Positions 6,016 through 48,067 of a stretch of DNA of 64,000 nucleotides are shown piece by piece. The notes beneath the pieces were generated by a model that ran no database searches, had not been told where the DNA came from, and saw only the letters and a list, made by a program, of their open reading frames with translations. Location of the stretch: the NCBI RefSeq assembly GCF_030064675.1, contig NZ_CP116413.1, forward strand, positions 4,558,001-4,622,000. The letters run 5' to 3'. The first letter of the stretch is position 1. Each line of letters starts with the position of its first letter. The stretch is from Crossiella sp. CA-258035 (lineage in GTDB: Bacteria > Actinomycetota > Actinomycetes > Mycobacteriales > Pseudonocardiaceae). A program made the position numbers and the translations under genes.

Positions 6016-6026
6016 GCGGTGCCGCC

Positions 6027-6740: not shown

Positions 6741-6757
6741 CCGAACGGTTGAGGTCA

Positions 6758-6795
6758 GGGGCACCGGAGTCCGCGACGCGCGGCTCCGGTGCCCC
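6758..6795 (+). terminator. intrinsic-type terminator after the Crp/Fnr pair
   Basis: A perfect 12-bp stem (GGGGCACCGGAG and its complement) has a 14-nt loop, 18 nt after the stop of the second regulator. It is followed by TTCCT rather than a true U-run, as is usual in high-GC actinomycetes. Confidence 0.7.
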
Positions 6796-9101: not shown

Positions 9102-9239
9102 GCTCAGCAGCAACACTGGCGACCGGTTAACGAATCCAGAGGCACTCCGCGCAGAGGCTGAGGCGTTCGGTTCCTGAACACTGCTGATGGGTTGAACCCC
9201 ACTCGTGTGCGCGATGAGAAGAACGGATTGAGGAGCAAG

Positions 9240-9770
9240 ATGAAAGCCTTGGCACGTGTGCTCTTGACAGGTTCGGCAGTGGTAGCAGCCGTCACCGCTG
9301 TCGTCATCGCCACCAACCCCGGCAACGCCCACTCGGCTGACCAGATGCCGTCCGTGGTGGAGAACTACGAATATCCGGGCCGGGAACAGATTGAGAGCCA
9401 GGACAAGGTCAAACTGATCGCAGGCGACGGCAACATCATCTACGCGGACTGCACGCAACCGCCCACAGGTCCAGTTGGGCTGATCGAAGTGCGCTCGACC
9501 TCGCTTGAGGTTGGCAAGCAGCACGACGGTCGCGTGTGTTTTCGGGTACTTGGCACCACGGGCAACCTCACGATGAAGCTGCCTGACGTGTTCGAGATCC
9601 GTGGAGATGGACGGCAGCCCGGTACTGGCCACAAGGGCAAGGCCGACGTCGTCAGCAACTCCGGGCAGCAGAAGACCGTCGAGCTCGACCCGGACGGCAG
9701 CATGCAGGTAGGAGTCGGCAACCCTGGCGGAGAGCCGTCCACCCTGCTGCGGCTGGAGATCACCTCCTGA
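9240..9770 (+). CDS. small secreted protein of unknown function
   Basis: This 176-residue protein has a clear signal peptide (MKALARVLLTGSAVVAAVTAVVIATNPGNAHSA, cleavage likely after HSA). The mature part is acidic with predicted beta strands (LIEVRSTSLEVGKQHDGRVCFRVLG; LTMKLPDVFEIRG) and two Cys that could pair. I do not recognise the family. ATG 9240-9242 has AGGAG at 9231-9235. It lies between the pseudoprotease and the polymorphic toxin, all on one strand, suggesting a shared cell-surface context. Confidence 0.7.
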   Translation: MKALARVLLTGSAVVAAVTAVVIATNPGNAHSADQMPSVVENYEYPGREQIESQDKVKLIAGDGNIIYADCTQPPTGPVGLIEVRSTSLEVGKQHDGRVCFRVLGTTGNLTMKLPDVFEIRGDGRQPGTGHKGKADVVSNSGQQKTVELDPDGSMQVGVGNPGGEPSTLLRLEITS

Positions 9771-9961
9771 GGGGCGTTCCTGTGCCAGCGCCATCCACAC
9801 GCGGATGATCTCCACCCTGATCGGTGGCAGCACCTGACCCGAAGTGGCCAGGCAGGGGACCCGCAGGTTCACCGTCTGCTGATAGGGCCGGGCGTGATGT
9901 TGGACTGGGGCCCTGGGCAGGATCGAAGGTCGCATGTTCGAGAAACAGAGGGGGGAATGAG

Positions 9962-12900: not shown

Positions 12901-14125
12901 TGCGGACGAGCTGGTGGAGCGGGCGTACGAGAACGCTGATGTCTGCCGTGTTCTCGACCACCGCCCAGGCGGGCAGGGCACCGAGAACTGCCTGTCCATG
13001 GTGCTGCACCCGGACTTCGTGCTGACTCAGGTTATCGGTGCGGTCACCAGCATCCTGCAGGTCTACTCTGTCGTGACCGGTGGCGTCGTAGCTGGGGCGC
13101 TGATGGTGCGCCTGGGCGCCGCGTGCGCAGCCTCGGAGGTCTGCGGTGCGGCGCTGGTGGCCTTCACGCCGGAGGCTGGCGCCTACATGCCGTGGCTGGC
13201 GTTGTCGGCACAGGGAACTGCGGCGAGCGCGGCGGTGATGCGTACGCTGGGTGAACTTCAAGCGGTTCTGGTGACCTCGGTCAGCACGGAGGCACGAATC
13301 GCCAGGCTTGGTGCGGAGCTACTGAACCGCCTGCCCGGTTCGATTCGCCTGTGCCGAAGCTTTGCTGCCGATACGCCGGTGCTCATGGCTGATGGCAGCA
13401 CCAAGCCCGTCGCGGACATCCGGGCTGGTGAGATCGTCCGCTCGGCTAACCCTGCCAACGGCGAGGTCGACTCGGCGGCGGTGTCCAGAGCGGTTGTGGG
13501 CGCTGGAGAGAAGCGGATGGTCGACATCTCGGTGGCTGGCGGGGGCAGGATTAGCGCCACCGACACGCACCCGTTCTGGGTGGAGGACACGCACTCGTGG
13601 GTCCATGCAGGAGACCTGCGCATCGGCCAGCATCTCCGTACTCCGGAGGGCACCGTAGCCGTCTCCAGCGTGCATTCCCGGCTCGTGACCGTAACCGTGC
13701 ACAACCTGGATGTGACCGCGCCGGACACGTTCTTCGTTGTGGCTGGCGGCAAGCCAGTGCTGGTGCACAACTCTGAGTGCATCGAACATGTCGTGCTCGG
13801 CTTGCGGGAAGGCGGGGCCCTCAAGGCATTCGCGGACTCGATCAAGGGAAACATCATCACCGTGGACGACTATCGCGGTGTCGTCTTCACCCTTGGTCAA
13901 CTTCTGCAGCTGAACTCCGGCTGGGTCAAGGTGTCGTTCCGGATGGACAACCTGCTCAACGCAGAGAAGGGGGTTGCGGCTATGGTGAACGCCTCTCGCC
14001 TGCGCAGCGCACGCCAGGTGGGAGGTGCAACCGACTACGAGTTGTCCTTGCTGTACGACCTCGGCGTACTCAAGCACGTCAACTTCTACCATAACGGTAA
14101 ACTGATGCCGAACCCGTACGCCTAG
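9962..14125 (+). CDS. polymorphic toxin: ALF repeats, Ala-rich helices, Hint module, C-terminal toxin
   Basis: This 1387-residue secreted protein has the following layout. There is a signal peptide (1-33), ALF-type repeats (about 45-215: ALDxG...FLxxGxxxxxxxDLRxxVNQ...GG), a long Ala-rich helical segment (about 225-525), a second ALF set (about 585-790) and a second Ala-rich stretch (800-940). A hydrophobic region (about 1018-1070) is followed by a Hint module (1131-1270). The Hint module starts with Cys in CRSFAADTPVLMADGS, has TDTHPFWV (block B TxxH), and ends VHN before Ser1271, so the self-cleavage residues are present. The last 117 residues (ECIEHVVLGLREGG...HNGKLMPNPYA) form the variable toxin domain; it loosely resembles HxxLGL...NP[FY] toxin domains, but its activity is unknown. 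ATG 9962 follows a GGGGGGAA ribosome site. The immunity gene follows by 10 nt. Confidence 0.85.
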   Translation: MRARKGAVLAVALSLVSSMVVVPAGAAAAENPPVSQSDGRARVVAIWQTGGQIAKAEAEKVLTGTDAQITDFLTNIYPRVAKLDDRLSVNRMQSAGGVAVKEAAQRALDDGSAGALRAFLENGFRNPKNVDLRVAVNQVVAAGGPQLKAAAQPALDAGTPETLEKFLSTGWRLPFETDLRIRVNQAMSVGGKNVRAGAQQALDAGTAEAYQEFLDIDFAVYQARDLEAATIGELAGVAKEAGEQAAKETVAAKVASERAVKEAELAKAAAEEAARATEAAKGNADEAAAAAGRAASAASAAAVAAREAVNAANVASKAAWTAANAASRAASAASMAGKAASRAFSAAAAVTTDASKVPAARQAAVDAAAVADNATEAAAAAQAAGDAARNAGNAAAAAGSAGDNARAAAQAAGESAAAARRAGADANAASKAAAASRAAAARANRAANAARSFATIAAAAADTAKQAALHAADNARAAAAAANRAADHAGSAQNAAAEATAHADAATQAALNANGAAEQARKIYDGARTSDAERFTVRIDQAREAARNAHDEVPRNFFTGPTWDLAQTARQDEETKQLIAQATEPGASPQVVADKGRQVAMRLARVGGPWTKAAALAALAGIDEEVRAFVKDGIKVAAGQDDRTVLTSLAQDGTDAFRAAAKQALAGSDVEVERFLLERDYPRRDLDDRLQINHLLSQARDAGRLTTRTAAQKALDAGTRAAYRKFLAEDRYTAAGQDERLLVNQVKADPASGPETVEMAQVALDGPPGVLRQFLDVERFATARRDKEQSAHNAEMANLLATAYAAAAEAAQHANEAQAAAATARNAAAEAVGYAQQANEFAQQAATHAQNAQKSANEAAKSAQDAANSARKARTAASAAQASARKASQSAVWAQASAKQARTFANDAYKAARTAAVEALAAGKLAQEAADAAAGAAKRAIDLSIQKKYEYGVQHQQYCQGRHGESGPRYSECMRLLTMTADELVERAYENADVCRVLDHRPGGQGTENCLSMVLHPDFVLTQVIGAVTSILQVYSVVTGGVVAGALMVRLGAACAASEVCGAALVAFTPEAGAYMPWLALSAQGTAASAAVMRTLGELQAVLVTSVSTEARIARLGAELLNRLPGSIRLCRSFAADTPVLMADGSTKPVADIRAGEIVRSANPANGEVDSAAVSRAVVGAGEKRMVDISVAGGGRISATDTHPFWVEDTHSWVHAGDLRIGQHLRTPEGTVAVSSVHSRLVTVTVHNLDVTAPDTFFVVAGGKPVLVHNSECIEHVVLGLREGGALKAFADSIKGNIITVDDYRGVVFTLGQLLQLNSGWVKVSFRMDNLLNAEKGVAAMVNASRLRSARQVGGATDYELSLLYDLGVLKHVNFYHNGKLMPNPYA

Positions 14126-14135
14126 GAGGCCGGTA

Positions 14136-14480
14136 ATGCCTGAAATCGAGTTCCCATTGGCATTTGGCCGCAGGTTCGAGCCCTGGTCCTATCAGGCTAC
14201 CCATGGCGTCTTGCTGTTGCGTAGCAACAAAACCACTGCTGCGCAGACGCGAGTAGACCTCCGTTTTCGCTTCGTGGAGCAGATGACCTTGCGTGCGGTG
14301 ATTGACGAGGTCACCCTCGACCTCGTCGACGGCGTCTACCGGATGTCTCCCGAGGACAACGTGGTGGCCGGGTCCCTTGAAGTGATTGAGGACGATCTGG
14401 AGAGCGGCCAGCCCTCCGTTTTCGACGACAAGTCGCTCGACAGCCACATCATTAGATCGCTCTATCACCACCGCTACTGA
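14136..14480 (+). CDS. candidate immunity protein for the Hint-toxin
   Basis: This 114-residue cytoplasmic protein has no signal peptide and is rich in beta-strand-forming stretches. Its C-terminal half is acidic (DEVTLDLVDGVYRMSPEDNVVAGSLEVIEDDLE). I do not recognise its family. Its start codon lies 10 nt after the toxin stop, with a perfect AGGAGG overlapping that stop, so it is translated with the toxin. Position, size and lack of export are what is expected of an immunity partner; the assignment is by context. Confidence 0.7.
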   Translation: MPEIEFPLAFGRRFEPWSYQATHGVLLLRSNKTTAAQTRVDLRFRFVEQMTLRAVIDEVTLDLVDGVYRMSPEDNVVAGSLEVIEDDLESGQPSVFDDKSLDSHIIRSLYHHRY

Positions 14481-14489
14481 CGCATTGAG

Positions 14490-14539
14490 GCGGGAAGGTA
14501 CTGCGGCTGCACTGGAGCGCAGATCCAGTACCTTCCCGC
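14490..14539 (+). terminator. terminator hairpin after the toxin-immunity pair
   Basis: A perfect 14-bp stem (GCGGGAAGGTACTG and its complement) has a 22-nt loop, starting 10 nt after the immunity stop codon. It isolates the toxin-immunity unit from the genes downstream. Confidence 0.7.
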
Positions 14540-14857
14540 GCTAGCCGCTCGACGAGCAGCGTGTGGCTCGTCTCGCCGGACCTCTCCGACGCGCTGGTGG
14601 ACTCGATCCACCTGCGAGCGCTCCAAAGGGAGCAGTGCACGGGCCGAGCTCGGTCGACGCAAACTCAGTTCCAAGCGCCAGCTGTCACCAGTGCCCGCCT
14701 GCCGCTTGCGTCGAACGACGGTTTGGTGTTCACCAGGCCATGCTCGGACTGACTCGCTGGACGATTCGCCTCCGCAACCCGCTCCGAACTGTCCTGCTAG
14801 TCAGGGCGTTAGCTGGAACCCCGTGGTGGCCATCGCGGCCACGCGGAGGTGATTCCG
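14540..14857. other. intergenic region without recognisable gene
   Basis: About 320 bases show open frames only in shadow registers with unlikely codon use. It probably holds the promoter of the membrane-anchored protein at 14858. I see no repeat or RNA motif. Confidence 0.35.
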
Positions 14858-15433
14858 GTGCAGCAACCCCAGCGCACGAGGCGGCGATGGCTTGTGGTGC
14901 GCGCCGGAACGTTCATCCTGGTGATTGCCACCGCAATCGGCGCGGTGGTCACCCGCGAAGTCGATGGCCAGCCGCTCGTGCTGATCTCCCCGCAATCCAC
15001 CAGCGCGGACTACGTCAAGCGAATCGACGCGGTCGCCCAGGAGATGCTGGCCAACGACACCGCGATGCGCGCCGTGCTCAGCCAGAACACCCGCAACCTC
15101 ACCGCGGAACCGGTCCGCCGATCCTTGGCGACCATGCGGCAGCTGCTCGCCTCGACTGGCACCGAGCTGACCAGGATGCGCAAGGAGAAGCTCGTGCCTG
15201 AGCCGTTCAACTCCAGCCACGGCAAGCTCGTCACCGCCGCGGCCACACTCGACCAGCACTACGACGCCATGGCGCGGGCGATCGCCGCGACGAACGCCGC
15301 CGACCAGCAACAGGCCCTGCTCGCCGCCCGCACCCTCGACACCCGCTACGCCGAGTTGCTCATGGACTACCTACGCGACTACCAGCAACGCCTCCTCTCC
15401 GCGGGCTTCCGTCTGGACAAGGCGCCGAGGTGA
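14858..15433 (+). CDS. membrane-anchored helical protein of unknown function
   Basis: This 191-residue protein has a basic N-terminus, a single membrane helix (about residues 15-32: VVRAGTFILVIATAIGAVV) and an extracytoplasmic region that is almost entirely helical (ADYVKRIDAVAQEML; VRRSLATMRQLLASTGTELTRMRKEK; LLMDYLRDYQQRLLSAG). GTG 14858 is chosen for the near-perfect GGAGGTGA at 14845-14852. It overlaps the next start by GTGA (15430-15433). I do not recognise the family. Being next to a recombinase remnant and tRNA, it is probably accessory. Confidence 0.65.
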   Translation: MQQPQRTRRRWLVVRAGTFILVIATAIGAVVTREVDGQPLVLISPQSTSADYVKRIDAVAQEMLANDTAMRAVLSQNTRNLTAEPVRRSLATMRQLLASTGTELTRMRKEKLVPEPFNSSHGKLVTAAATLDQHYDAMARAIAATNAADQQQALLAARTLDTRYAELLMDYLRDYQQRLLSAGFRLDKAPR

Positions 15434-15640
15434 CGTCCACCCCGCACCTGGCAGGCACCCTGCGGCACAACCCCGACTGCCCCGGATGCGGTGACTACGC
15501 GGTGCTGCTGGCGCGCGAGGCCACCGCCCGCCGGGCGTTCTACGAAGCTGGAGTCGCCCACGCCGACGCGCTGGCCGCGTTCCGGCACGGGGTTATCGCC
15601 TACCTCAAGAGCCGCCACCCGCTGCACGCGGCAGGAAACC
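15430..15640 (+). CDS. small CPGC-motif protein, 3' end lost at a recombinase fragment
   Basis: The frame opens at GTG 15430, overlapping the previous stop. It encodes MTSTPHLAGTLRHNPDCPGCGDYAVLLAREATARRAFYEAGVAHADALAAFRHGVIAYLKSRHP, with a CPGC zinc-knuckle-like pair followed by helices. No stop occurs where this protein should end. From about 15640 the credible coding shifts to another register that encodes part of a serine recombinase. The end coordinate is therefore approximate and the gene is likely truncated by insertion or deletion. Confidence 0.4.
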
Positions 15641-16503
15641 CTGCTGGACCCCGACGATGTGGCGGCGGGCCATGTGGTCCGGTTCCGGCGCGCAGACGCC
15701 AGCCGGGTTGTCCGTTCCCGTCAGCCTGCGCACCCGGCGATCGTGTCTGTCGAGGACTTCACCCAGGCGCAGTTGCTGCGGCGTTTGAAGGGGGCGGGCG
15801 GGTTGAAGACCGCTCGTCGGAGCGAGCGCGCCGGGCGGGCCACGAAGCACACCTACCTGTTCCGCGGTCGGGTCCGGTGCACGATCTGCGAGCGCAAGAT
15901 GGAAGGCAGTCCGCGGGCGCACGGGATGTACTACCGTTGTCCCGCGCGAACCCTCGCACCTGGCTCACAGGCCTTGGCCGCACATCCGCCCACGGTCTAC
16001 CTCCGAGAGGACGCGGTGCAGGAGGCGGTCAATGCCTGGCTCGGCGGGTTGTTCGCGCCGGAGAACGTCGACCGGACCGTTGCCGCGTGGTGGACTCGCA
16101 ACCCGACGCGCATGCCTCATCCGGCGGGCGGGAGGCTGCGCAACAACGGCTGGCCAAAGCCCAGGCGGAATTGAGCCGCTATCAGGAAGCGATTCGTGCG
16201 GGCATTGACCCGCTGGCGTTGGTCGAGGTGATGAACGCGGCGCAGGCAGCACGCGTGGCGGCACAGGCGGAGTTGGACGGGGCGCCGCCCCTGAAGGCAC
16301 TCAGCTCAGCCGAGGTCCACGCGATGATCGACTCGTTGGGAGACGCGGGGGCCGCGCTGAACAGTGCGAAGCCGGAGCGTCTGGCGGACCTGTATGGCGC
16401 GGTTGACCTGCAAGTTCGCTATACGCAAACGGCCCACGTAGCTGATGTGAGCATCAAACCAGTGAGCCGTGTGAATAGTGTGCGTGTCCGAGGGGGGACT
16501 TGA
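15640..16503 (+). pseudogene. serine recombinase C-terminal fragment, frameshifted
   Basis: One register (about 15640-16100) encodes the middle of a large serine recombinase: RQPAHPAIVSVEDFTQAQLLRRLKG and a zinc-ribbon domain (YLFRGRVRCTICERKMEGSPRAHGMYYRCPAR). Near 16090-16100 the coding switches frame and continues as EAAQQRLAKAQAELSRYQEAIRAGIDPLALVEVM, the coiled-coil part, to a TGA at 16501. The catalytic resolvase domain with its nucleophile Ser is missing altogether. It is a dead remnant of the integrase of a former element, directly next to tRNA-Leu. Confidence 0.75.
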
Positions 16504-16567
16504 ACCCCCACCCCCTTTCGGGGACTAGCACCTCAAGCTAGCGCGTCTGCCATTCCGCCACCCGGAC
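16485..16567 (-). tRNA. tRNA-Leu (anticodon GAG)
   Basis: The reverse complement starts GTCCGGGTGGCGGAATGGCA, has an anticodon stem CTAGC/GCTAG with loop TTGAGGT (anticodon GAG, reading CUC), a long variable arm (CCCCGAAAGGGG), a T arm with GTTCAAGTC, and an acceptor stem GTCCGGG/CTCGGAC. The CCA end is not encoded. Type II structure and sequence identify tRNA-Leu. tRNA genes are common integration sites, consistent with the recombinase fragment ending a few bases away. Confidence 0.95.
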
Positions 16568-16674
16568 TTGGCGGTCTCCCGCCAGGCAGGTGAAGGTTAG
16601 CTGATCAACTGGGCCGGTTCCAAATCGGATGGCTGGGGCGGGTCAAGTGGCCGTTCCGGTGATAGAAAGGCCTG

Positions 16675-18006
16675 GTGAGCGAGCAGCGGGTAGGGAGTCA
16701 GCGGGTCGCCGAGGACGAGGTGGTGCGCCTGGCCAGTGAGTTGATCCGGATCGACAGCACCAATACCGGGGATCCGGACACGCTGGTGGGGGAGCGGGCG
16801 GCCGCTGAGTACGTGGCGGAGCAGCTCGCTGAGGTGGGGTTCGAGACCACCTACGTCGAGTCGGGTGCTCGGGGGCGTGGGAACGTGGTCGCGCGGCTGG
16901 CCGGGGCGGACTCCAGCCGGGGGGCGTTGCTGGTGCACGGGCATCTGGATGTGGTGCCGGCTGATGCTTCCGAGTGGTCTGTGCACCCGTTTTCTGGGGC
17001 GGTGCAGGACGGGTATGTGTGGGGGCGGGGGGCCGTTGACATGAAGGACATGGTCGCCATGACGCTGGCGACCGCGCGGCGGTTGAAGCGGGACGGGGTG
17101 GTGCCGCCGCGGGACATCGTGTTCGCGTTCCTCGCTGACGAGGAGGCCGGTGGGCTCCAGGGGGCGCAGTGGTTGGTTGATCACAAGCCGGACTTGTTCG
17201 AGGGGGTCACCGAGGCGATCGGGGAGGTTGGCGGGTTCTCGATCACGGTGAAGGACGGGGTTCGCGCCTATCTGATCGAGACCGCGGAGAAGGGCATTGC
17301 CTGGATGCGGCTGCGGGTCCGGGCGCGGGCCGGGCACGGGTCGATGGTGCACGAGGACAACGCGGTGACGAAGCTGGCCGAGGCCGTGGCGCGGCTGGGG
17401 CGGCACCGGTTCCCGTTGGTCATGACCGACTCGGTGCGGGAGTTCCTGGCCGGGATCAGCGAGCTGACCGGGCTGGAGTTCCCGGAGGACGACCTGGACG
17501 GGACCGTGGCGAAGCTGGGCAACATGGCCCGGATGATCGGCGCGACGCTGCGGGACACCGCCAACCCCACCATGCTCGACGCCGGGTACAAGGCCAACGT
17601 CATCCCCAGCACGGCGGAGGCGACCGTGGACTGCCGGATCCTGCCCGGGCGGCAGGAGGCGTTCGAGCGGGAGCTGGACGCGGTGCTCGGGCCGGATGTG
17701 GAACGCGAGTGGATCGCGAGTCTGCCTGCGGTGGAGACGACCTTCGACGGGAGGTTGGTGGACACCATGTCCGCCTCGATCCTGGCCGAGGACCCCGGTG
17801 CGAAGCTGGTGCCCTACATGCTCTCCGGGGGCACCGACGCGAAGGCGTTCAGCCGGCTGGGCATTCGCTGCTTCGGGTTCGCGCCGTTGCGGCTGCCCGC
17901 GGACCTGGACTTCTCCGCGCTCTTCCACGGCGTGGACGAGCGGGTGCCGGTGGACGCGCTGCAGTTCGGCACCCGGGTGCTGGACCGGTTCCTGCGGGAC
18001 TGCTGA
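16675..18006 (+). CDS. M20-family metallopeptidase (carboxypeptidase/dipeptidase type)
   Basis: This 443-residue cytoplasmic protein carries the M20 signatures. These are HGHLDVVP (about 88-95, metal and catalytic residues), GRGAVDMKDM (118-126, bridging Asp), DEEAGG (155-160, catalytic Glu pair) and a dimerisation lid domain with RAGHGSMVHEDNA. The C-terminal YMLSGGTDAKAFSRLGIRCFGFAPL supplies the last metal ligand region. It is predicted to hydrolyse peptides or N-acyl amino acids using two zinc ions. GTG 16675 is the start. It is the first intact housekeeping-like gene after the tRNA and is transcribed away from it. Confidence 0.9.
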   Translation: MSEQRVGSQRVAEDEVVRLASELIRIDSTNTGDPDTLVGERAAAEYVAEQLAEVGFETTYVESGARGRGNVVARLAGADSSRGALLVHGHLDVVPADASEWSVHPFSGAVQDGYVWGRGAVDMKDMVAMTLATARRLKRDGVVPPRDIVFAFLADEEAGGLQGAQWLVDHKPDLFEGVTEAIGEVGGFSITVKDGVRAYLIETAEKGIAWMRLRVRARAGHGSMVHEDNAVTKLAEAVARLGRHRFPLVMTDSVREFLAGISELTGLEFPEDDLDGTVAKLGNMARMIGATLRDTANPTMLDAGYKANVIPSTAEATVDCRILPGRQEAFERELDAVLGPDVEREWIASLPAVETTFDGRLVDTMSASILAEDPGAKLVPYMLSGGTDAKAFSRLGIRCFGFAPLRLPADLDFSALFHGVDERVPVDALQFGTRVLDRFLRDC

Positions 18007-29119: not shown

Positions 29120-29512
29120 CTATCCGGTCGCGACGCCGGTGGTCGCGGTGATGTGCGCAGGCAGCTCCTCGTGCCGGTCACCCACGTTGACCGTGCCGGT
29201 CGGCTCGAACATCAGGATCGAGGCGCCCTCAGCCGAGACCGGCCGGTGCTCGACCCCGCGCGGCACCACGAACACCGAACCCCGCGGCAGCACCACCTCC
29301 CGCTCGCCACCGTCCTCGCGCAGTCCGATGCGCAGTTCTCCTTCCAGCACGAGGAAGAACTCGTCGGTGTCGGCGTGGCTGTGCCAGACGAACTCGCCCT
29401 GGACCTTGGCCACTCGGACGTCGTAGTCGTTGACGCGGGTCAGGATGCGCGGGCTCCACAGGTCCTGGAAACCGGCGAGCACGGCGGCGATGGAGATCGA
29501 GTCAGTGGTCAT
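29120..29512 (-). CDS. cupin-domain protein
   Basis: This 130-residue single-domain cupin has motif 1 GEFVWHSHADTDEFFLVLEGELRIG (His, His, Glu metal ligands) and motif 2 LPRGSVFVVPRGVEHRPVS (distal His). Small cupins of this type are metal-binding enzymes or sensors; the substrate is unknown. It is divergent from the GlxA/AraC-type regulator 51 nt away, so that regulator, before its disruption, probably controlled it. ATG 29510-29512 is the start. Confidence 0.85.
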   Translation of the reverse strand: MTTDSISIAAVLAGFQDLWSPRILTRVNDYDVRVAKVQGEFVWHSHADTDEFFLVLEGELRIGLREDGGEREVVLPRGSVFVVPRGVEHRPVSAEGASILMFEPTGTVNVGDRHEELPAHITATTGVATG

Positions 29513-29563: not shown

Positions 29564-30475
29564 ATGTCGCGTGGATCCTCGCACCGGGTGGCCATGATCG
29601 TGGACGCCGGGTCCAACCCGTTCGAGCTGGGCATCGCCACCGAGCTGTTCGGGCTGCGGCGACCGGAGCTGGAGCGGCCCTGGTACGAGTTCACGCTGTG
29701 CGCGGCCGAACCGTCGGTGCCGATGCACCAGGGCATGTTCACCCTCTCCGGCGTGGCCACCCTGGACGCGGCCGAGGCCGCGGACACCGTGATCGTGCCC
29801 AACCGGCCCGATCCGGAAGCCGGGGCCGCGCCCGCGGTGCTGGCCGCGGTGCGGCGGGCCGCGGCGCGCGGGGCCAGGCTGGTCAGCTTCTGCACCGGGG
29901 CGTTCGTGCTGGCCGAGGCCGGTGCGCTGGACGGGCGGGCGGCGACCACGCACTGGCGCTGGGCCGAGCAGTTCAGCGCGCGGTTCCCGGCGGTGCGGCT
30001 GGCGCCGGACGTGCTCTACGTGGCCGACGGGAACGTGTTCACCGCGGCGGGCAGCGCGGCCGCGCTGGACCTCGGGCTGCACCTGATCCGCACCGACCAC
30101 GGCGCGGAGATCGCGAACGCGGTCAGCCGCAGGCTGGTCTTCGCCGCGCACCGGGACGGCGGGCAGCGGCAGTTCGTGGAACGGCCGGTCGCCGAGGTGC
30201 CCGATGTCTCGCTGGCCCCGGTGCTGGCCTGGGCGCAGGCGCGGCTGGACACCCCGCTGACCGTGGCCGACCTGGCCACGCGGGCGGCGGTCAGCCAGGC
30301 CACGCTGCACCGGCGGTTCCAGGCGGAGCTGGGCACCACGCCGCTGGCCTGGCTGACCGGGGAGCGGGTGGCGCTGGCCTGCCGGTTGATCGAACGCGGT
30401 GAGCTGCGGCTGAATTGGGTGGCCGAAGCCAGCGGGCTGGGCACCGCCTCGAACCTGCGGGTCCAGCTGCGGCGG
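29564..30475 (+). pseudogene. GlxA/AraC-type regulator, 5' part (disrupted by the mobile element)
   Basis: The frame encodes 304 residues: a DJ-1/PfpI amidotransferase-like domain (VAMIVDAGSNPFELGIATELFG; VSFCTGAFVLAEAGALDGRAATTHW) and an AraC HTH (DTPLTVADLATRAAVSQATLHRRFQAELGTTPLAWL, then LNWVAEASGLGTASNLRVQLRR). After LRR at 30475 the sequence abruptly ceases to look like AraC and runs on to a stop at 30593-30595 inside the element. The missing end is found at 37453-37500. The hybrid product would have 40 foreign residues in place of the last 15, so the second HTH helix region is disturbed. Target: probably the divergent cupin gene. Confidence 0.85.
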
Positions 30476-30485
30476 TTGTCGCGGC
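30476..30485 (+). repeat. left terminal inverted repeat of the element
   Basis: TTGTCGCGGC pairs with the right end (37437-37446) at 9 of 10 positions. Just inside lie further related motifs (GTGTCCCGTTG and the near-palindrome GTCGCGTTGCGAC, about 30498-30522), likely recombinase-binding sites. Confidence 0.7.
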
Positions 30486-30632
30486 AGTGGCCGTGTCCCG
30501 TTGTGAGCGTGTCGCGTTGCGACCAGCCAGTGAAGCCCATCGGAGCCGTGTGCGTCCACGTTAGACGATCGAACTTGCGGTCGGTGGATGGGTGATGTCG
30601 TGTCGCGGTACTCCTTTGGAACAGGTCTTCGT

Positions 30633-31124
30633 TCAGCCGCATGGTCCGGTGATCCTCGACTTCCTGGCGGTGGGGAGGGTGCGGACGTTGTTCGGTGAGT
30701 CGGCGCGTTGTCGAAGCCGGAGGATCTCTTCGTGCTGCGCGGCGAGTTGTGACAACGCGCGCTCCTTGAACTCGGTGAGCTCGATGATCCGTGCATCGCG
30801 TTCCCGGACGCGTTCACGGAGCTTGGCGTTCTCGGCTTTCAGCCTGGTGATCTGGAGTTCGCGCGGGTCTGAGACGGTGCCCGCCTCGCGGAGATCGGCC
30901 AGCCGACGCTGAAACTCCTGGGCCAGGTGCTGATAGGGCCCTGGCCGCTGGTTGCCCTGCGGGTCGGTGCGTGCGTAGAAGCCCGTTCTGGCGACGCCGG
31001 CTTCTCGTGCGAGAGTCTTGAGGTCGCAACCGCCGCGGGCTGGAAGCTGTCCCAGCAGTAGGCGGTCCATCGCAGCACGGATGCTGGCCTCGTTGCGGCG
31101 GCGCTGTTCGGTGGTCAGCGGCAT
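30633..31124 (-). CDS. DUF6262/TnpC-like accessory transposition protein
   Basis: This 163-residue protein starts MPLTTEQRRRNEASIRAAMDRLLLGQLP, has a small HTH-like segment (DLKTLAREAGVARTGFYART) and a long coiled coil (LKAENAKLRERVRERDARIIELTEFKERALSQLAAQHEEILRLRQ). This is the layout of the small third protein (TnpC-like, DUF6262) that accompanies tyrosine recombinases of Tn554-type elements, where it influences orientation or efficiency. AGGAGA lies about 10 nt upstream of ATG 31124. It lies at the left end of the element, separated from the recombinases by the oppositely oriented methyltransferase gene. Confidence 0.7.
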   Translation of the reverse strand: MPLTTEQRRRNEASIRAAMDRLLLGQLPARGGCDLKTLAREAGVARTGFYARTDPQGNQRPGPYQHLAQEFQRRLADLREAGTVSDPRELQITRLKAENAKLRERVRERDARIIELTEFKERALSQLAAQHEEILRLRQRADSPNNVRTLPTARKSRITGPCG

Positions 31125-31251
31125 GAAGATGTGCTCTCCTGCATTGCGGTCTGCCGAAACGTGGCAGAGTTCTGGGCCAGTTGGCGGCCGATGATCGGTC
31201 TCTCTGCGTCGGCCGTCCACGAGGTCGTGATCATGGAATATCGTGCCGGTC

Positions 31252-31896
31252 ATGACCACGGATGACTGGTTGGCCGACACCCGAACCTCTTATGACACGG
31301 TCGCGGTCAGCTATGCCGACCAAGTGCGCGGCGCCCTCGCCGGACACCAGTACCTGCGCGCGGCTCTGGCGTTGTTCGCCGACAGCGTGCGGATCGCTGG
31401 CGGCGGGCCGGTCGCGGACGTCGGCTGCGGCCCCGGTGAAGTCACCGCCCACCTGCATGAGCTCGGTGTCGACGCCTTCGGTGTCGACCTCTCCCCTGGG
31501 ATGATCGACGTGGCCCGGCGCGACCACCCCGGCCTGCGGTTCGAGGTGGGCTCGATGACGGACCTGGACCTCCCCGTCGCTTCGGTGGCCGGCCTGCTCG
31601 CCTGGCAGTCGTTGATCCACATCCCTGACGACGAGGTGCCGACTGTGTTCGGGCACTTCCACCGAGCATTGCGTCCCGGCGGACCGCTGCAGCTCCTGTT
31701 TCACGTCGGCGACGAGTCGCGGTTGATGACGGAGGGCTATGGCGGTCACCCGATGAAGGTCCATGTCCACCGCCGTCAGCCTGACCAGGTGGCATCCTGG
31801 CTGCGCGATGCCGGATTCGTGGTCGAGGCTCAGATGCTGCTCGACCCGGATGCGAAAGCTCAGCAAGCGATTCTTTTCGCACGCAGTAAGTCCTAA
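31252..31896 (+). CDS. SAM-dependent methyltransferase, passenger of the mobile element
   Basis: This 214-residue class I methyltransferase has motif I VADVGCGPGEVTAHL, an acidic motif II (FGVDLSPGMIDVAR) and the usual motif IV region (VAGLLAWQSLIHIPDDEV). The substrate is unknown. It is clearly paralogous to the methyltransferase at 47423-48067 (shared GxGPGxVTAHL, FGVDLSPxM, EGYGG and ending pattern). The start is ATG 31252; GTG 31243 is in frame. It is the only plus-strand gene in the element and the only cargo-like gene; possible roles are resistance or small-molecule modification. It converges on the third recombinase. Confidence 0.85.
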   Translation: MTTDDWLADTRTSYDTVAVSYADQVRGALAGHQYLRAALALFADSVRIAGGGPVADVGCGPGEVTAHLHELGVDAFGVDLSPGMIDVARRDHPGLRFEVGSMTDLDLPVASVAGLLAWQSLIHIPDDEVPTVFGHFHRALRPGGPLQLLFHVGDESRLMTEGYGGHPMKVHVHRRQPDQVASWLRDAGFVVEAQMLLDPDAKAQQAILFARSKS

Positions 31897-34124
31897 CTTC
31901 TGTATATGTCGGGCTCGCCAGTCAGAACCGGAGGACATGCGGGTGTGCTCCCAGCGGTGCTGGTGGCCTCGTCGATGCTGTCGAGCACTCGTTGGACACG
32001 GTCGTGCTCGCGCCGAAGCCGGGTCTTCTCCCCCGTGGGGACTCTGGGGTTGCCGAGAAACGCTTGGAAGGTGGCCGCCTGCTCGGCCCAGATCGGTCGG
32101 TGGCAGGCGTGGTGGGTGGCCTGCGGGCAGCGGGCCGAGTCGCACAGTCCGATCAGCGGCCGTGTCGCCTCTGTGGTCCCGGCCAGTCGCAGGCAAAGCG
32201 CTTTGGACGGGTCGCGGAACCAGCAGTAGTTGGCCGGGCCGACGTGCAGGCTTGCGGCCTGCGCGCGGAGTAGGTTCTCGATTCGCCGGTCGGTGTCCAG
32301 CACCGTCGGCTCGGCCGGTGCGCTGTCCCGCAGCGCGTTGTCGATGTGGGTGAAGGTCGCGATGAGGCCGCGGGCACCGAGTCCGGCGGGGAGCTGTCCG
32401 GCCTGGAACTGGCGGAATGCGTCGATGGTCAGGCGGAGGTGGTGTTCTTCCTCCAGTTCCTGGACTTCGGCGTGGAAGAGGGCTTGTGATCCGCCGGGGC
32501 GGTTGGCGTAGCCCTCGGTGGTGGCGGTCGACACGTGCTTGAGGTGGATCTTCGCCGCGAGCAGTCCGCCGGGGCGTTGCGCGAGTTCCTGGGCCAGCGT
32601 GCGGCGCAGCATCCGCAGGTTGAGCGGGCCGGCGGGGATCGGTGTCAGGCCGAGTCGCTGCCCGGTCGGTCCGTCGATCCAGTTGCGCAGGCGTGGGTAG
32701 CTGGTGTGGAAGACCATCGCGCCGAACACGGGTTCGCCGGTGTCGCCGCCGTGGAGGCGTTCGGCGAGCGCGATCGCCTGGTCGACCTCGGCGACGACGA
32801 CCCACTCGTCGTCCTCGCCGCCGAACTGGCGGCCTTTGATGACCTTGCTGGCTAGGCGGAAGCGTTGGCCGCCGCCCGTGATCGTGAGGGGAGGCCGTCG
32901 GCAGCCGATGCGTAGTTCCAGCAGTTCGCTGGTCCGCATGCCGCTGGCCGCCGCGGTGAGGATCAGGCAGGCGGTGCGGACCGCGGTGACCAGGCCGCGG
33001 ATCTCGTGGTAGGACACCGGCAGCGTCCAGGCGCGGGCCTTGCCGCCGTCCGCGCCGAGCACTGGTGCCGCGTTGCGGCCCCAGGCGTGCTCGACCCCCA
33101 GCACCCGGACGGTGTGTTCGAGGTGCGGCCGGATCTGCTCGACGTGGCGCAGCAGCACCCGGCCGTAGCCAAGCTGGCGCCCCAGCGGGCTGAGGTTCAC
33201 CGGCAGCACCGGGTCGGCCGGGCTCCAGCCGTCGGCCAGGCGCCGGTCGATCGCGGCCTGCGGCAGCCGCTGCAAGGCGTGGCCCGCCTCGATCTCGCCC
33301 GCGAGGAAGGCGGTGAGCCGCGCGATGCCGATGTCGGTGAGCAGTCCCGGAGGCGCGCTGCCCCACTCAGGAGCCCGGCGGAACTCGCCGCGCAGCTCAA
33401 CGAGATGCGGCCCGATCGTGTCGACCAGATAGAGGCAGGCCGTCAGCAGCGGTTGAAGGACGGGCAGCGGGACCGGTGATGTCCTGTTTTCCCCGGCGCG
33501 TTGGTGCCCGGCGACGGTGTTGGCCGGTGTGCCGTTCCAGGGCGTGAATCCGGGCTGGTAGCGGTCGGTGCTGAACAGTTCGCCGTAGATCGCGACCAGT
33601 TGGAGCACCCAGACGCGGGCGGCGACGCTGCCTGGGGTGTTCGCGGTCTCGGTGGGGTTGCCGTTCGGGTCGTGCTTGACGAACGCGTGTTGCAGGAACT
33701 GGTCGCAGTGCAGCTGGGTGACCTCGGCCAGGCTGCGGACGCCGTGCTTGTCCAGCCAGGACAGCCATTTGATCAGGCTGTTGAGGTGTTTGCGGCAGGT
33801 GCGGGGGCTCAGGCGTTCGCGGTGCGCGTGCGGGAGTCGGGCGACCGCTTCGTGGGTCGGCGCGAGCAGGGCGAGCATGAGTTCTTTGGCCATCCGCCGC
33901 CATGCCGGGTTCGTGATGGCGGTGAAGTCCCACCGCTTCTCGACCGCGCCCATCATCCGGTGTGCGTCGGCCAACCCGTCCAGCACCCAGACGTCCTGGT
34001 CGAACACGGGACGAACGGAGCCGGGCAGCAGGGTGAGCCCTGCCAGCTCGCAGACGTCGGCGCCGGTGAATACCGAGGACGACGGCGGGTGGTCGGTGCT
34101 GGGGAGGAGGTGTTGGTCGGTCAC
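31893..34124 (-). CDS. large tyrosine recombinase, third of the trio
   Basis: This 743-residue protein has recognisable tyrosine-recombinase boxes in its C-terminal half: ILTAAASGMRTSELLELRIGC (box I Arg), GPLNLRMLRRTLAQELAQ (box II, with Asn in place of the usual His) and IHLKHVSTATTEGYANR (His and the nucleophile Tyr). The N-terminal half contains a SAM-like core-binding domain (SPRTCRKHLNSLIKWLSWLDKHGVRSLAEVTQLHCDQFL). A Cys/His cluster near the C-terminus (CDSARCPQATHHACH) may bind zinc. GTG 34122-34124 overlaps the stop of the second recombinase (GTGA), so the genes are coupled. Confidence 0.8.
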   Translation of the reverse strand: MTDQHLLPSTDHPPSSSVFTGADVCELAGLTLLPGSVRPVFDQDVWVLDGLADAHRMMGAVEKRWDFTAITNPAWRRMAKELMLALLAPTHEAVARLPHAHRERLSPRTCRKHLNSLIKWLSWLDKHGVRSLAEVTQLHCDQFLQHAFVKHDPNGNPTETANTPGSVAARVWVLQLVAIYGELFSTDRYQPGFTPWNGTPANTVAGHQRAGENRTSPVPLPVLQPLLTACLYLVDTIGPHLVELRGEFRRAPEWGSAPPGLLTDIGIARLTAFLAGEIEAGHALQRLPQAAIDRRLADGWSPADPVLPVNLSPLGRQLGYGRVLLRHVEQIRPHLEHTVRVLGVEHAWGRNAAPVLGADGGKARAWTLPVSYHEIRGLVTAVRTACLILTAAASGMRTSELLELRIGCRRPPLTITGGGQRFRLASKVIKGRQFGGEDDEWVVVAEVDQAIALAERLHGGDTGEPVFGAMVFHTSYPRLRNWIDGPTGQRLGLTPIPAGPLNLRMLRRTLAQELAQRPGGLLAAKIHLKHVSTATTEGYANRPGGSQALFHAEVQELEEEHHLRLTIDAFRQFQAGQLPAGLGARGLIATFTHIDNALRDSAPAEPTVLDTDRRIENLLRAQAASLHVGPANYCWFRDPSKALCLRLAGTTEATRPLIGLCDSARCPQATHHACHRPIWAEQAATFQAFLGNPRVPTGEKTRLRREHDRVQRVLDSIDEATSTAGSTPACPPVLTGEPDIYRS

Positions 34125-35889
34125 GCCAACTCCTCGGGACGCAGCGGCAGCAGCTCGCCGACGCTGCCACCGATCTCGCTGCCGGCCGTGGTGTCGGCCT
34201 CGGTGTCGAGGGCGTGGGCGGCGTCGGTGATCGCCTGCTGGTCGAAGCGGGGCAAGATCTCGGTCTCCAGTCGGTGGGCGTAGGGGCCGAACACGGCCAG
34301 GGACGCGGTCGTGGGCTGCTGGCGGAACTGTCGGGAGAAGAAACCCTTGAGCCGCAACAGGTTCGGCAGATGACGAGGCAGGAACACCGCCAGCGGACAC
34401 AGCAGACAGACCCACGGCCGTGCGGGGCAGGGCTTGCCCGCCGGACCGAACGGGCTGGCCAGCTGGTTGGCGCAGGCCGCGACGAACACATCCCGCTGTC
34501 CACCGAGCAGTTCGGTGATCGCGGCATCGTCCAACCCGTGCTCGGCGGCCAGCTGCGGCAACCCGGACGCCGCGTCCACGGCCTGTTCGTCGGTCAGGAC
34601 ACGCGGTGGCTTGGCTTTGCGGAGCAGATCGGCCTGCCCATCCTCGATGATCGCTTCGATCGCGTCCTGTTGGGCCGGTGTGGTCACGCTCAGGTAGTGA
34701 TCGCCCTCGACCGCGGCGCTGTGGTTGGGATCGATGGTGGTGCGGCCGGTCCAGCCGCGACGGGACAACAGGTTCTGGTAGGTGGTGCGGATGCGGCTGC
34801 GGTGCAACGAGGTCGGGACACCGTCGACGGTCAGATCGTGCGTGGCGGCCCAGCGTCGGCTCAACCCGTTGCGGAACACCAGACCGGACGCCGGACTTCC
34901 CGCCTCGCTGGCGGGATTGTGGCCCAAGCCCTGGTTCAGCCGGATCCACAACCTCGACCGCAGTTCCTCACCAACGACACGGCGCAGTGGGGCGGAATGC
35001 TCCAGCCACTGCTCCAGCAGGCGAACTGCCTGCCGGGGCAAGGTCAGGCTCTGCGGACCCGAGCGGCCTTTGACGTAGTCGAGCAGGATCGTGGCCTCGC
35101 CTGCCCAGTCGATGTCGGGCACTCCGAGGTCGGCGATGCCGTCGGGGACGATGCCGGTGTAGGCGCCGAACAACAGCACGTAGGCGAACGTGACGTCGGT
35201 CGTCGGGAACAAGGTCCGGGTCACCTGGCCCAGGTTCGTTTGGGCCACCGCGTAGCTCGTCACCCCGGCCCACCGGATCACCTGCGCGCGACCGAGCGGG
35301 CCGTGCCGCAGCAGCAACCAGGCCAGGTTCTCATCGCTCAACCCGCCCGGCATGGATCCATGCCGTCCTCGGCCGCCCGCAGCAGGACCTGCTGCGCGGA
35401 GTGCGCGTCAGAGATGATGCTCTGGCAGCGGTCGACCAGGGTGGCCCATTCTCGCTCGATGTAGGCAGCGAGCGGCTTGTAGGCGGGCTTCGCCTTCAAC
35501 GCCCGACCGTCCAGATGGGCACGCACCTGCGTGTCGAGTTGCTCGGTCGCGGCGTCATATCCGGCCAGCAGAACGCGGGAGTCCGCCTCCCGAAACGCGC
35601 TAACCGACATCCAGTAGCGGATGAGGATGGAGCGGGTCAGGTCGGCCGCACCTCCGGTGAAGCCGGCCGCCGTCAGTTCCCGCACCATGCAGCGCAGCGC
35701 ACCGATGTAATTCCCCGCCGTCGCGCGTGCCCCGATCCCGCCCAACGGATGAGTCAACATCGGCAAGCCCTGGGCGAGATCCTCGGCCAGCTGAGGGTTC
35801 GGCAGCCCGTCCAAGCGAGCGGCCCAGGAGGTGCCGTCCGGGAACTCGAACCGCACCGACAACGGCGTGGTGGTCACGATGGCCGGCAT
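34121..35889 (-). pseudogene. tyrosine recombinase, second of the trio, probable frameshift
   Basis: Two overlapping frames together make one protein of about 590 residues. Codons from ATG 35889 to TGA 35338 give the core-binding part (ending LLRAAEDGMDPCRAG). A second frame from ATG 35353 to TGA 34121 gives the rest (MPGGLSDENLAWLLLRHGPLGRAQ...). The text on both sides of the overlap reads as continuous (CRAGGLSDENLAWLL), suggesting a one-base loss in a G-run near 35340-35350. The catalytic region is degenerate: FGAYTGIVPDGIADL (box I), LHRSRIRTTYQNLL (box II) and DPNHSAAVEGDHYLS (box III). A Cys cluster (CPARPWVCLLCPL) follows. A programmed frameshift or two separate coupled genes remain possible. 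Confidence 0.6.
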
Positions 35890-37346
35890 CAGACCTCCGC
35901 CTCCCCGGCGAACTCGGCCTCGACCTCAGCCGTGATCCCGGCGGGGACGAGTCCGGCCTGTTGCCCGGCGTGCTCGTAGGCCGTGCGATAGACGCGGGTG
36001 ACATCCAAGCGACGCAGATACAGTTCCGTCGTGGTCACGCTGCTGTGCCCGAGCAGATCCCGCAGCACCGCCAACGGGTCGGCCTTGGTCAGGTAAAGCG
36101 CCAGCCCGGCGTCCGCGCCCGCGTCGGCGACCAGCGCCGCGGCCTGCCGGTAGTAGCCACTGACCAACTTCTCCAGCGTGTGGATCGCGAACGAATGCCG
36201 CAGCCGATGCGGGTGCACCAACGGAAACCGCGGCTCAAAACGTTCCCGGACCCGCCGCGACGTGCGGCGAAACACCGTCGGTCAGTCCACAAACGGCGAA
36301 CCGTCTGCCTGCACCGCCAGCAAACACGACCCGCCCTCCGACGCCACCAGCCGCAGCCGCTCGGCCGCGGTCAGCGTGCGCCAGGCCCGCCGGACACCGT
36401 TGATCCGGCCGCCCTCCCAGTCCGGCTCGGTCACCACCAGCGGCTCACCCGTGAGTGGGCGCCAACCAGAACCGTGTGCCGCAGCCGCGCGTTCCAGGTT
36501 GATGTAGTCGTGCACCCGCGCCAGCACGTCGTAGTCGATCCAGGAGGTGCGCTGCTTCGCCCCCTTCGCCACGCCATGCCCCACTGGGAACAGCACCGGA
36601 ACGTCGCTGCGCCGCGCCGGAAGACCCGGCACCTCATAGACCAACAAGTGCGTGAACTCGCGCCGACGCAGCCCACTGGCGGCCACCAACTCGCCCATCG
36701 CCGCGTTGCGCCCCAGATACCGGCCCTGGAACGACTCATCAGCAACGCCGTCCGGGCGAAGCCCACCCAGCGCGCGGACGAACAGCCTGACGAACTCGGC
36801 CTCCAGGTACTTGATCGTGGTGTGCGGCTTCGGTGCCCGCACCTTTGCCAAGTTGCGGCGATACTCCCGCACCACACCCTCGGCGACCCGACGGGCGGTG
36901 GCATAGGTGAACGGCTCCGCCGCGGCATGGCCCTCCGCGAGCGCCCACCGGTAGAACCCGCCCAACACGTTGGTGTGCAGGTTCCACGTGGACGGTTCCC
37001 ACCGTGCTCCCAGCGGTCCCGAGCACAACCGATACCCGGCGTACGCGCTCAGCGCCGACCGCAGCTCCTGCCGCCGCCCGAACACACCGACCCCGACCTC
37101 GTCGAGGAACTCCATCCACGAACGCAGCACATCCGCGTACACCCGCCAGGTGCGCTCGGCCGGGGCACCGCTGACCGGCAACTCCTGCAACCACCGGTTC
37201 ACCGCCACCACTGGACGCTGTGTGCCGTCGTCATCCTCGAACCGCAGATCGTCATCGATCAGCACCGGCATGCGCTCCCGAATCAGCGGCTTGCGGCTGA
37301 CGTGCCACGACTGCCAGCCACTGGCCGAGAAAGTCGTCAAGATCAT
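35889..37346 (-). pseudogene. tyrosine recombinase, first of the trio, interrupted by an opal codon
   Basis: From ATG 37346 the frame encodes a SAM-like N-domain and box I (MGELVAASGLRRREFTHLLVYEV), then reaches TGA at 36282-36284. The same frame continues without interruption: FRRTSRRVRERFEPRF, box II HPHRLRHSFAIHTLEKLV and box III LLGHSSVTTTELYLRR with the Tyr nucleophile, ending at 35889. A full protein would be about 485 residues. The stop separates the catalytic Arg I from His-Arg II and Tyr, so the short product must be inactive. Its last stop shares one base with the ATG of the second recombinase. A CGA-to-TGA change would explain it; sequencing error is possible. Confidence 0.75.
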
Positions 37347-37436
37347 GGCTCCCGTACCTATGTCAACAACAAGGCACGGCGCTGACGGACACTCCCAGCC
37401 GCCCCACACACCATCCAAACGAGACACAGGAACAAA

Positions 37437-37446
37437 GCCGCGACTA
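37437..37446 (-). repeat. right terminal inverted repeat of the element
   Basis: GCCGCGACTA here is the inverted partner of TTGTCGCGGC at 30476-30485 (one mismatch). It is followed directly by the hexamer CGGCGG (37447-37452), which also flanks the left end. Confidence 0.7.
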
Positions 37447-37452
37447 CGGCGG

Positions 37453-37500
37453 CAGACCGGGCTGACGCCGACCGCGTACCGGCGGCGGTTTGCCTCCTGA
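37453..37500 (+). pseudogene. 3' remnant of the disrupted GlxA/AraC-type regulator
   Basis: Sixteen codons, QTGLTPTAYRRRFAS and stop, give the canonical end of an AraC HTH domain (GxTPxxYRRxF). They fit in frame after the LRR that ends the 5' part at 30475, giving an intact protein of 319 residues. It has no start of its own. Confidence 0.85.
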
Positions 37501-47422: not shown

Positions 47423-48067
47423 TCAGGCCGGGCGGCGCGCGGTGAGCACGACCTGGGGGCGCAGCGACGGCGGCTGAGGCGGCAGCCGCAGCTCGGCGAC
47501 CGGTTCCAGACCGGCGTCGGCCAGCATCCCGGCCAGTTCGTCGGGGTGGTACAGGTGGGTCGTCCAGGACACCGGCAGGCCGCCGTAGCCCTCGGTCCGG
47601 TGGATGTCGCCGTCCCCGACGTGCGTGCCGATCAGCGCCTGCCCGCCGGGGACGAGCGCTTCGGCGAAGGTCCGCAGCACGCCGGGCAGCGCCTCCCGGG
47701 GGAGGTTGAACAGCGACCACCAGCCGAGCACGCCACCGAGTGAGGCAGGCGCGAGGTCGAGCTCGGTGGCCGAGGCGACGGAGAACCGCAGGTCCGGGTA
47801 CTGCTTGCGGGCGTGCTCGACCATCCGCGGGGACAGGTCAACGCCCGAGGCGTCCAGCCCGAGCTCGGTGAGGTGCGCGGTGACGTGGCCGGGTCCGCAG
47901 CCGACGTCCAGGACCGGTCCGAGTCCGCGCACGGACTCGGCGAACCCGGCGAGCATGGCCCGTAGCCACGGCTCGGTCTCCAGCCGGCCGACGGCCAGCT
48001 CCACGTAGGCATCGGCGACCCGGTCGTAGGACTCGCGGACGGTCTCAAGATCGGCAGGCTGCGGCAC
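47423..48067 (-). CDS. SAM-dependent methyltransferase
   Basis: This 214-residue class I methyltransferase has motif I VLDVGCGPGHVTAHL and motif II ASGVDLSPRMVEHAR. Its whole pattern is shared with the passenger methyltransferase at 31252-31896, including EGYGG and the final VVLTAR. The substrate is unknown. It is convergent with the erythromycin-esterase-like gene, ending 7 nt from it. Confidence 0.85.
   Translation of the reverse strand: MPQPADLETVRESYDRVADAYVELAVGRLETEPWLRAMLAGFAESVRGLGPVLDVGCGPGHVTAHLTELGLDASGVDLSPRMVEHARKQYPDLRFSVASATELDLAPASLGGVLGWWSLFNLPREALPGVLRTFAEALVPGGQALIGTHVGDGDIHRTEGYGGLPVSWTTHLYHPDELAGMLADAGLEPVAELRLPPQPPSLRPQVVLTARRPA

Follow-up and report, generated by a model that had tools for sequence, protein, structure and literature searches.

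What has split an AraC-type regulator gene in Crossiella sp. CA-258035, and which other genes does the responsible element enter? The DNA analyzed here (the window) is a stretch of 64,000 nucleotides, G000:C1:4558001-4622000 of a 9.17-Mb genome in one contig. In it, the two parts of the gene are separated by an insert of 6,977 bp (30476-37452, one copy of a 6-bp repeat included). We consider it highly probable that the insert is a transposon of the GInt/SE kind (SE, strand-biased circularizing integrative element) that recombined at a 6-bp overlap and took araC as a secondary site, that its recombinase genes A and B are broken, and that a methyltransferase carried as cargo has been retained. 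Genome searches were made on samples of 397 genomes of the host order, 390 and 249 genomes of the family, and 396 genomes of the phylum.

The gene is interrupted by a tyrosine-recombinase element, the ends of which can be placed to the base. Its two parts are as follows.

29564..30475, plus strand: regulator 5' part, FtrA/GlxA-type AraC, 304 codons; uninterrupted in G552 and G002
37453..37500, plus strand: regulator 3' part, QTGLTPTAYRRRFAS and then a stop; uninterrupted in G552 and G002

Both parts lie where a preliminary description of this DNA had placed them, and together they encode one protein of 319 residues with a DJ-1/PfpI domain and an AraC helix-turn-helix (HTH) domain; the nearest NCBIfam model is FtrA, matched at 335 bits and thus below its cut-off of 425. 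The frame departs from the family at 30475 and continues inside the element to 30595. In a genome of the same species (G552, locus L096, about 97% identical), the regulator is whole, the insert is absent, and the downstream DNA is the same. The left flank matches the window at 96.8% over 1,366 bp and the right flank at 95.0% over 1,509 bp, and the two meet between AAGCTACGGCGG and CAGACC; queries with the D-side and A-side parts of the element found no match in this 80-contig draft assembly. A congener (G002, locus L097) also has the whole regulator without the insert, followed by the same downstream DNA. The tail is uninterrupted in all 14 loci that hold the closest araC homologues of relatives (L005 to L018, L005 being the G002 gene), so relatives carry the 37453-37500 tail, as the preliminary description required. 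Because of the empty sites in G552 and G002 and the uninterrupted homologues, the insertion and both of its boundaries are a matter of observation. A cupin-domain gene (29120-29512, minus strand) is the divergent neighbor of the broken regulator, which may control it.

The ends of the element, called D side and A side after the outermost genes, read as follows.

30470..30475: 6-bp repeat CGGCGG, D-side junction
30476..30485: terminal inverted repeat, D-side end, TTGTCGCGGC; the element starts here in 10 other copies
37437..37446: terminal inverted repeat, A-side end, GCCGCGACTA, a 9/10 match to the D-side end
37447..37452: 6-bp repeat CGGCGG, A-side junction

Read inward, the ends are TTGTCGCGGC and TAGTCGCGGC, alike at 9 of 10 positions; of 200,000 pairs of positions drawn at random from the window, 0.019% reach this likeness. 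At each junction CGGCGG forms part of an imperfect 9-bp direct repeat, CTGCGGCGG and CTACGGCGG, which agree at 8 of 9 positions. The subterminal GTGTCTC of the A-side end recurs in three related loci (L062, L063, and L065). The GC content of the insert is 68.5%, versus 74 to 75% in the 5-kb flanks. The preliminary description was therefore correct in placing an element of about 7 kb between the halves, with CGGCGG at both junctions and a 9/10 inverted repeat at the ends.

Inside these ends, genes A, B, and C lie on the minus strand, followed by the methyltransferase gene on the plus strand and then gene D, with 157 bp between the gene D stop and the element end. From left to right in the window, the features are as follows.

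30633..31124, minus strand: gene D, GinD/TnpC-like small protein; matches gene four of a P. aeruginosa plasmid operon with a P of 95.7
31137..31945: cassette interrupting the A-B-C-D module, edges approximate; absent in L060 and L093
31252..31896, plus strand: class I S-adenosylmethionine (SAM)-dependent methyltransferase within the cassette, convergent with gene C
31893..34124, minus strand: gene C, large tyrosine-recombinase-like protein, 743 amino acids (aa), open frame
34121..35353, minus strand: gene B 3' piece, downstream of the frameshift; keeps K, R, H, and Y and is without the first catalytic Arg
35338..35889, minus strand: gene B 5' piece, overlapping the 3' piece out of frame
35889..36281, minus strand: gene A 3' piece (HxLRH ... 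LGH ... Y)
36282..37346, minus strand: gene A 5' piece, cut short by an in-frame TGA at 36282-36284

Gene A is broken by that TGA and gene B by a frameshift at about 35338-35353; each is a single open frame in five relatives (L055, L056, L062, L063, and L064). Genes C and D of the window copy are open. Because genes A and B are broken, the window copy is probably immobile, and the element is not the intact one that the preliminary description had seen. The three tyrosine recombinases, the TnpC-like gene, and the methyltransferase that it listed are all present; two of the recombinase genes are the broken ones, and the small gene D, described as TnpC/DUF6262-like, has no match to Pfam DUF6262.

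To which known elements does this module belong? We assembled protein families from actinobacterial and alphaproteobacterial relatives (14 sequences each for A and B, 15 for C, and 13 for D; the C and D families include the window's own sequence, and the D family includes a short entry of 57 aa, L146) and compared them with single operons by profile alignment. Against a P. aeruginosa plasmid operon (L156), the P values are 99.6 for A-A, B-B, and C-C and, as listed, 95.7 for D-D, and the best off-diagonal values are 64.3 and 48.4. A Klebsiella operon (L155) and two Paraburkholderia operons (L150 and L154) give the same diagonal for A to C (P of 99.1 to 100). Gene D is the weakest link, since its values there are 60.5 (Klebsiella) and 9.5 and 93.4 (Paraburkholderia L150 and L154).

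The catalytic residues, read from these alignments, are complete in gene A and partial in genes B and C. Gene A keeps R-H-R-H-Y in 18 of 18 aligned rows. The second protein (B) is without R1 and H2 and keeps K, R2, H3, and Y in most sequences: the first catalytic Arg is absent in 18/18, the later R and Y are kept in 18/18, and the last H is kept in 17/18. The third protein (C) has the first Arg and the Y, as well as G-x-R-x-x-E, in all 18 aligned sequences; its box II His is replaced in most, and R2 is kept. A gene B profile of 13 sequences matched no solved chain at an E of ≤0.1.

Thus, the element is a four-gene, three-integrase module of the GInt/SE kind, and its subfamily is found in several actinobacterial genera. 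The likeness rests on the gene-for-gene A-B-C-D match to the P. aeruginosa plasmid operon, which suggests that the element would work as GInts and SEs do. In the accessible text of their description (PMC5385486), GInts have a four-gene operon for three tyrosine-recombinase-like proteins and a small TnpC-like protein, with gene A beside one end, site-specific entry into protein genes, imperfect direct repeats, and cargo, all of which have counterparts here. In particular, three consecutive recombinase-like genes and a small fourth gene are homologous to ginA to ginD, as judged with stand-in operons from P. aeruginosa, Klebsiella, and Paraburkholderia in place of the published GInt proteins. The differences lie in the cargo, which in GInts extends from the ginD stop codon and precedes a short AT-rich 3' end whereas here it sits between C and D, and in the targets, which for GInts are an ABC transporter gene, ssb, and others and here are dpdA and araC. 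The direct repeats of GInts are imperfect and 10 to 17 nt long; those of the window have 6 identical bp within 9 bp at 8/9. According to the same text, GInts occur in Proteobacteria, Bacteroidetes, Firmicutes, and Verrucomicrobia, and the word Actinobacteria is absent from it; in the open-access literature, which leaves out most subscription papers, we found no actinobacterial GInts. An element of the GInt type is called a Tn6571-family transposon in the accessible part of PMC10121019.

SEs (intA-tfp-intB-srap), as presented in the accessible text of PMC10214605, share with the window element a core of four genes (first a recombinase, then a degenerate recombinase-fold protein, a large recombinase, and a small auxiliary protein), as well as a 6-bp footprint and few selected target sites. 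That text reports them from Gammaproteobacteria, with no Tfp or Srap homologues in Alpha- or Betaproteobacteria. The SE footprint comes from the donor site; the window also has a 6-bp repeat, which has the same letters as the empty site. We do not assign the element as a canonical GInt or SE, because two GInt features are not found in it.

The preliminary description had called the element Tn554-like. The wider group is right: Tn554 and the actinobacterial Tn554-related elements (accessible text of PMC3414803) share the 6-bp overlap, the target specificity, the TnpC-like partner, and one long recombinase. Tn554 itself has two recombinases (TnpA and TnpB) and TnpC, whereas the window has the four-gene A-B-C-D module with three recombinase-like genes, and we rejected Tn554 proper on gene number. 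Could it still be a Tn554-family transposon (tnpA, tnpB, and tnpC) with one extra recombinase? The small fourth gene in the position of TnpC would suit that reading, as would the overlap, the specificity, and the actinobacterial relatives with one long and one typical recombinase and often a TnpC-like partner (PMC3414803). However, the complete relatives that were read all have three recombinase-like genes in one order, all three match the three-integrase operon one to one, and, in the accessible part of PMC10214605, Tn554 lacks a counterpart of CDS2/Tfp. We regard this reading as quite improbable. RIT elements (ritABC) also have three recombinase genes in a row. Their proteins are 315 to 410 aa long, their terminal repeats are 34 bp, and they have three genes only (accessible text of PMC10214605), in contrast to about 485, 590, and 743 aa, 10-bp terminal repeats, and a gene D in the window.

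Two related modules were also seen in unusual settings. In L056 (13572-14924, minus strand), a related element starts just past a GinA-like open frame that stops at the PHMLRHF catalytic motif, so one three-integrase module is apparently nested inside another. In L149, a module on a Streptomyces plasmid lies between two pieces annotated as glycosyltransferase (3356-3664 and 12021-12788), perhaps the two parts of one interrupted target gene.

To see which genes the subfamily enters, we read the D-side ends of 10 other copies base by base (L052, L053, L054, L086, L087, L088, L089, L091, L092, and L093). This count leaves aside L051, L090, and L061, which have no D end; L060, with no match past gene D; L094 and L095, without the terminal bases; L158 to L160, with partial gene D; and L178 to L191, in which gene A is 65 to 75% identical and which belong to other subfamilies. 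The element sequence begins at the same base in 10 of 10. Eight of them abut the 3' half of dpdA; in L089 the neighbor is the 3' half of a glycosyltransferase gene, and in L091 it is DNA in which no protein family match was found; with the window's araC, these make up 11 ends. The commonest target seen in the subfamily is thus one motif of dpdA. Pfam PF23859 matches all eight dpdA flanks, starting at profile position 168 or 169 in five and at 186 to 195 in L052, L087, and L088. Read outward from the D end, each of the eight starts with RRQ or a similar triplet (HRQ, RSQ, or RQQ), and five of eight unoccupied dpdA genes read SVC-RRQ at the corresponding point.

The dpdA gene is part of DNA-modification systems carried by phages and islands. 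As an integration site it was not found in the open-access literature, with the same omission of most subscription papers. Distant relatives use other genes: among the complete ones, targets could be named for L062 (DUF4244; L063 is alike by eye) and L056 (a GinA-like gene), and none was assigned in L055, L058, L059, L064, and L065.

What, then, brought the element to araC? In the seven bases before the D end, the core GCGNCGG, itself drawn from the ends on which it is scored, shows no mismatch in the window copy and in 4 of the 10 other copies (5/11), one mismatch in four, and two in the remaining two, so that all 11 ends lie within two mismatches; at random positions the corresponding frequencies are 0.24%, 2.3%, and 9.9%. 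The araC site is best read as a secondary site that loosely resembles the dpdA motif through this core beside the D end. A missing dpdA in the host was considered as the cause of entry into araC and was rejected, as two unoccupied dpdA genes are present. The second of these (L114, G000:C1:3514063-3514830) has a TGA within its frame, a possible sign that it too is decaying. The preliminary description had instead suggested that the element may target the AraC family in other genomes and had proposed looking for copies in the same HTH codons. None of the 10 other D-side ends lies in an AraC gene, and the 14 araC homologues of relatives are uninterrupted at this point. The window copy, in which the LRR codons supply the core, is what speaks for a preference for AraC-family HTH codons with the dpdA copies as a side branch; with 8 of 10 other ends abutting dpdA, we find such a preference hardly credible.

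The other copies also show how the element fares after insertion. The D-side part is 95 to 99% identical between copies (L054, L092, and L093 are more diverged), and their 300-bp flanks align at 69 to 83% over 49 to 246 bp, by short matches of 15 to 26 bp, or not at all. Because the element part is so alike and the flanks are not, most copies are separate recent insertions; L053 and L086, with flanks 82.5% alike, could share one. Gene A and the 206 bp of the A side had no match in any of 16 other subfamily loci (E ≤ 1e-4), among which L060 is cut by the contig inside gene B and L053, L088, and L060 are on short contigs. In eight D-end copies with the methyltransferase, alignment toward the A side ends at 31894, 31958, 31986, 32026, 32249, 32342, 32379, and 33517; in L092 it goes no further than 30527, and in L093 pieces extend as far as 34328. 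When the ten D-end loci were scanned for an A-side-like end, only scattered partial matches appeared. Since the D-side parts are mostly 95 to 99% identical, the A-side losses are recent. We rejected the truncated copies as mobile units, as no two D-end copies with the methyltransferase share a truncation point.

Searches of 390 family genomes found the D side in 13 other genomes and a 1.5-kb A-side query in 11 others, at only 65 to 75% identity. The D-side search biases the count toward D-end copies, a bias that the methyltransferase search in 249 family genomes does not have: of the six other loci that it found at ≥95%, five keep the D end and none keeps the A end. At L089, the 5' half of the glycosyltransferase gene lies directly past the truncation, so both target halves flank the copy; about 180 bp may be missing, as estimated from the usual structure of the family. 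In G102, G198, G350, G034, G481, and G693 (the last with an additional weak match of 43 positions), the 3' fragment beside the element is the sole dpdA found; G012 has further dpdA fragments, and G514 has another, complete dpdA.

One-sided copies could also arise from the mode of insertion, by one-ended or copy-out joining that is anchored at the D end, leaves the other boundary variable, and loses adjacent target DNA. The D-side end would then join exactly at one dpdA motif, and each jump would leave a truncated, sealed copy that delivers the methyltransferase and is unable to leave. The lack of an A-side end or any gene A in all 16 other loci would fit, as would the eight different A-side alignment ends, the two target halves around the truncated copy in L089, and the copy-out movement proposed for related SEs in the accessible text of PMC10214605. 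However, ten of the copies were found via the D side, three loci are on short contigs (one of them cut inside gene B), and five truncation points (L090 at 31966 included) lie about 130 bp or less from the end of the methyltransferase frame at 31896. The methyltransferase is much closer to the D end (0.8 kb) than to the A end (5.5 kb), and selection to keep it, together with recombinase loss, predicts a similar bias. We therefore think one-ended insertion unlikely, and the sealed delivery copies equally so; selection on the methyltransferase combined with loss of the recombinases would explain most of the one-sided decay.

How did the methyltransferase come to be carried? The cassette edges carry the imperfect repeats TGTGCTCTCC and TGTGCTCCC. 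The cassette was probably captured within the subfamily, because genes C and D are directly adjacent in L060 and L093. A Nocardia plasmid carries the same methyltransferase DNA at 96.7% (window 31229-31930), as does a Streptomyces plasmid at 86.6% (window 31184-31894), and no gin match was found in those plasmid records. The methyltransferase family occurs at an E of ≤1e-40 in 198 of the 249 family genomes, and 23 of 30 fetched loci have no gin gene within about 1.5 kb, including four at 81 to 87% identity (L122 to L125). The frame is open over 98 to 100% of the aligned length in 11 of 11 copies tested, and dN/dS (nonsynonymous to synonymous rate ratio) relative to the window is 0.16 to 0.26 in L052, L053, L089, and L054. 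These values suggest that the methyltransferase is the part that selection keeps and that it would confer some benefit. The protein can be named as a class I SAM fold only; the nearest solved chains are mostly uncharacterized or generic methyltransferases. A defense role through PADLOC mad2 was considered and set aside, as the match covers the methyltransferase-like region and is not read as defense. A resident SAM methyltransferase paralogue of the cargo lies at 47423-48067 (minus strand; 70% DNA identity over 222 bp), and the open frame beside it may be an erythromycin-esterase relative.

Taken together, these observations are consistent with the following course. A four-gene, three-integrase site-specific transposon, whose methyltransferase cargo would have been captured earlier between C and D, would have entered the AraC-family gene by recombination at the 6-bp overlap CGGCGG. 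As a circle or copy intermediate, it would read GCCGCGACTA, the 6 bp, and TTGTCGCGGC, that is, two inverted recombinase-binding arms around the overlap, which is the usual core-site layout of tyrosine recombinases, and this intermediate would join CGGCGG in the target. By analogy with GInts, whose excision as a circle requires all four genes, genes A to D would make and integrate the circle, with the dpdA motif as the main target and araC entered as a secondary site. After insertion, A and B would have broken, probably leaving the copy immobile, and selection would have kept the methyltransferase.

Several points count against this reading. No second complete copy of the subfamily was found in the genome samples searched, so the window and its empty sites are the only definition of the A-side end. 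The TGA in gene A and the frameshift in gene B could be sequencing errors. The protein without the first catalytic Arg is the second here and the third in GInts (accessible text of PMC5385486); SEs have their degenerate protein in second place (accessible text of PMC10214605). Close operons of the window family do occur in Alphaproteobacteria, contrary to the accessible text of PMC10214605, by which no ginC-ginD block was found there. As for the target, the core was derived from the very ends on which it is scored, and it is common: its longer form, GCGNCGGCA, is found 16 times in the window, which scales to about 2,300 per genome. Only two of the eight unoccupied dpdA genes have this longer form exactly. 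Further target determinants must therefore exist. Moreover, neither of the host's two dpdA genes, of which one has an internal TGA, contains the element. As for the cargo, the methyltransferase is open in 11 of the 12 loci holding it, L095 keeping only a 136-bp scrap, and dN/dS is noisy for copies under about 1% from the window, with two values exceeding 1.

Elsewhere in the window, positions 5001-18000 have a GC content of 0.62 to 0.71 per kb, versus 0.72 to 0.78 at 19 to 30 kb and 38 to 42 kb, and are possibly another island. One feature lies inside this lower-GC region.

16484-16567, minus strand: tRNA-Leu(gag)

These findings place a GInt/SE-type module in Actinomycetota, with ends read to the base and an empty site in the same species, and they indicate dpdA as a recurrent target. 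They also provide several relics, where one cargo methyltransferase persists after the machinery that carried it has decayed. Three recombinase-like proteins with unequal catalytic sites would share one reaction in these elements, and the recent copies offer material with which to test how they do so.

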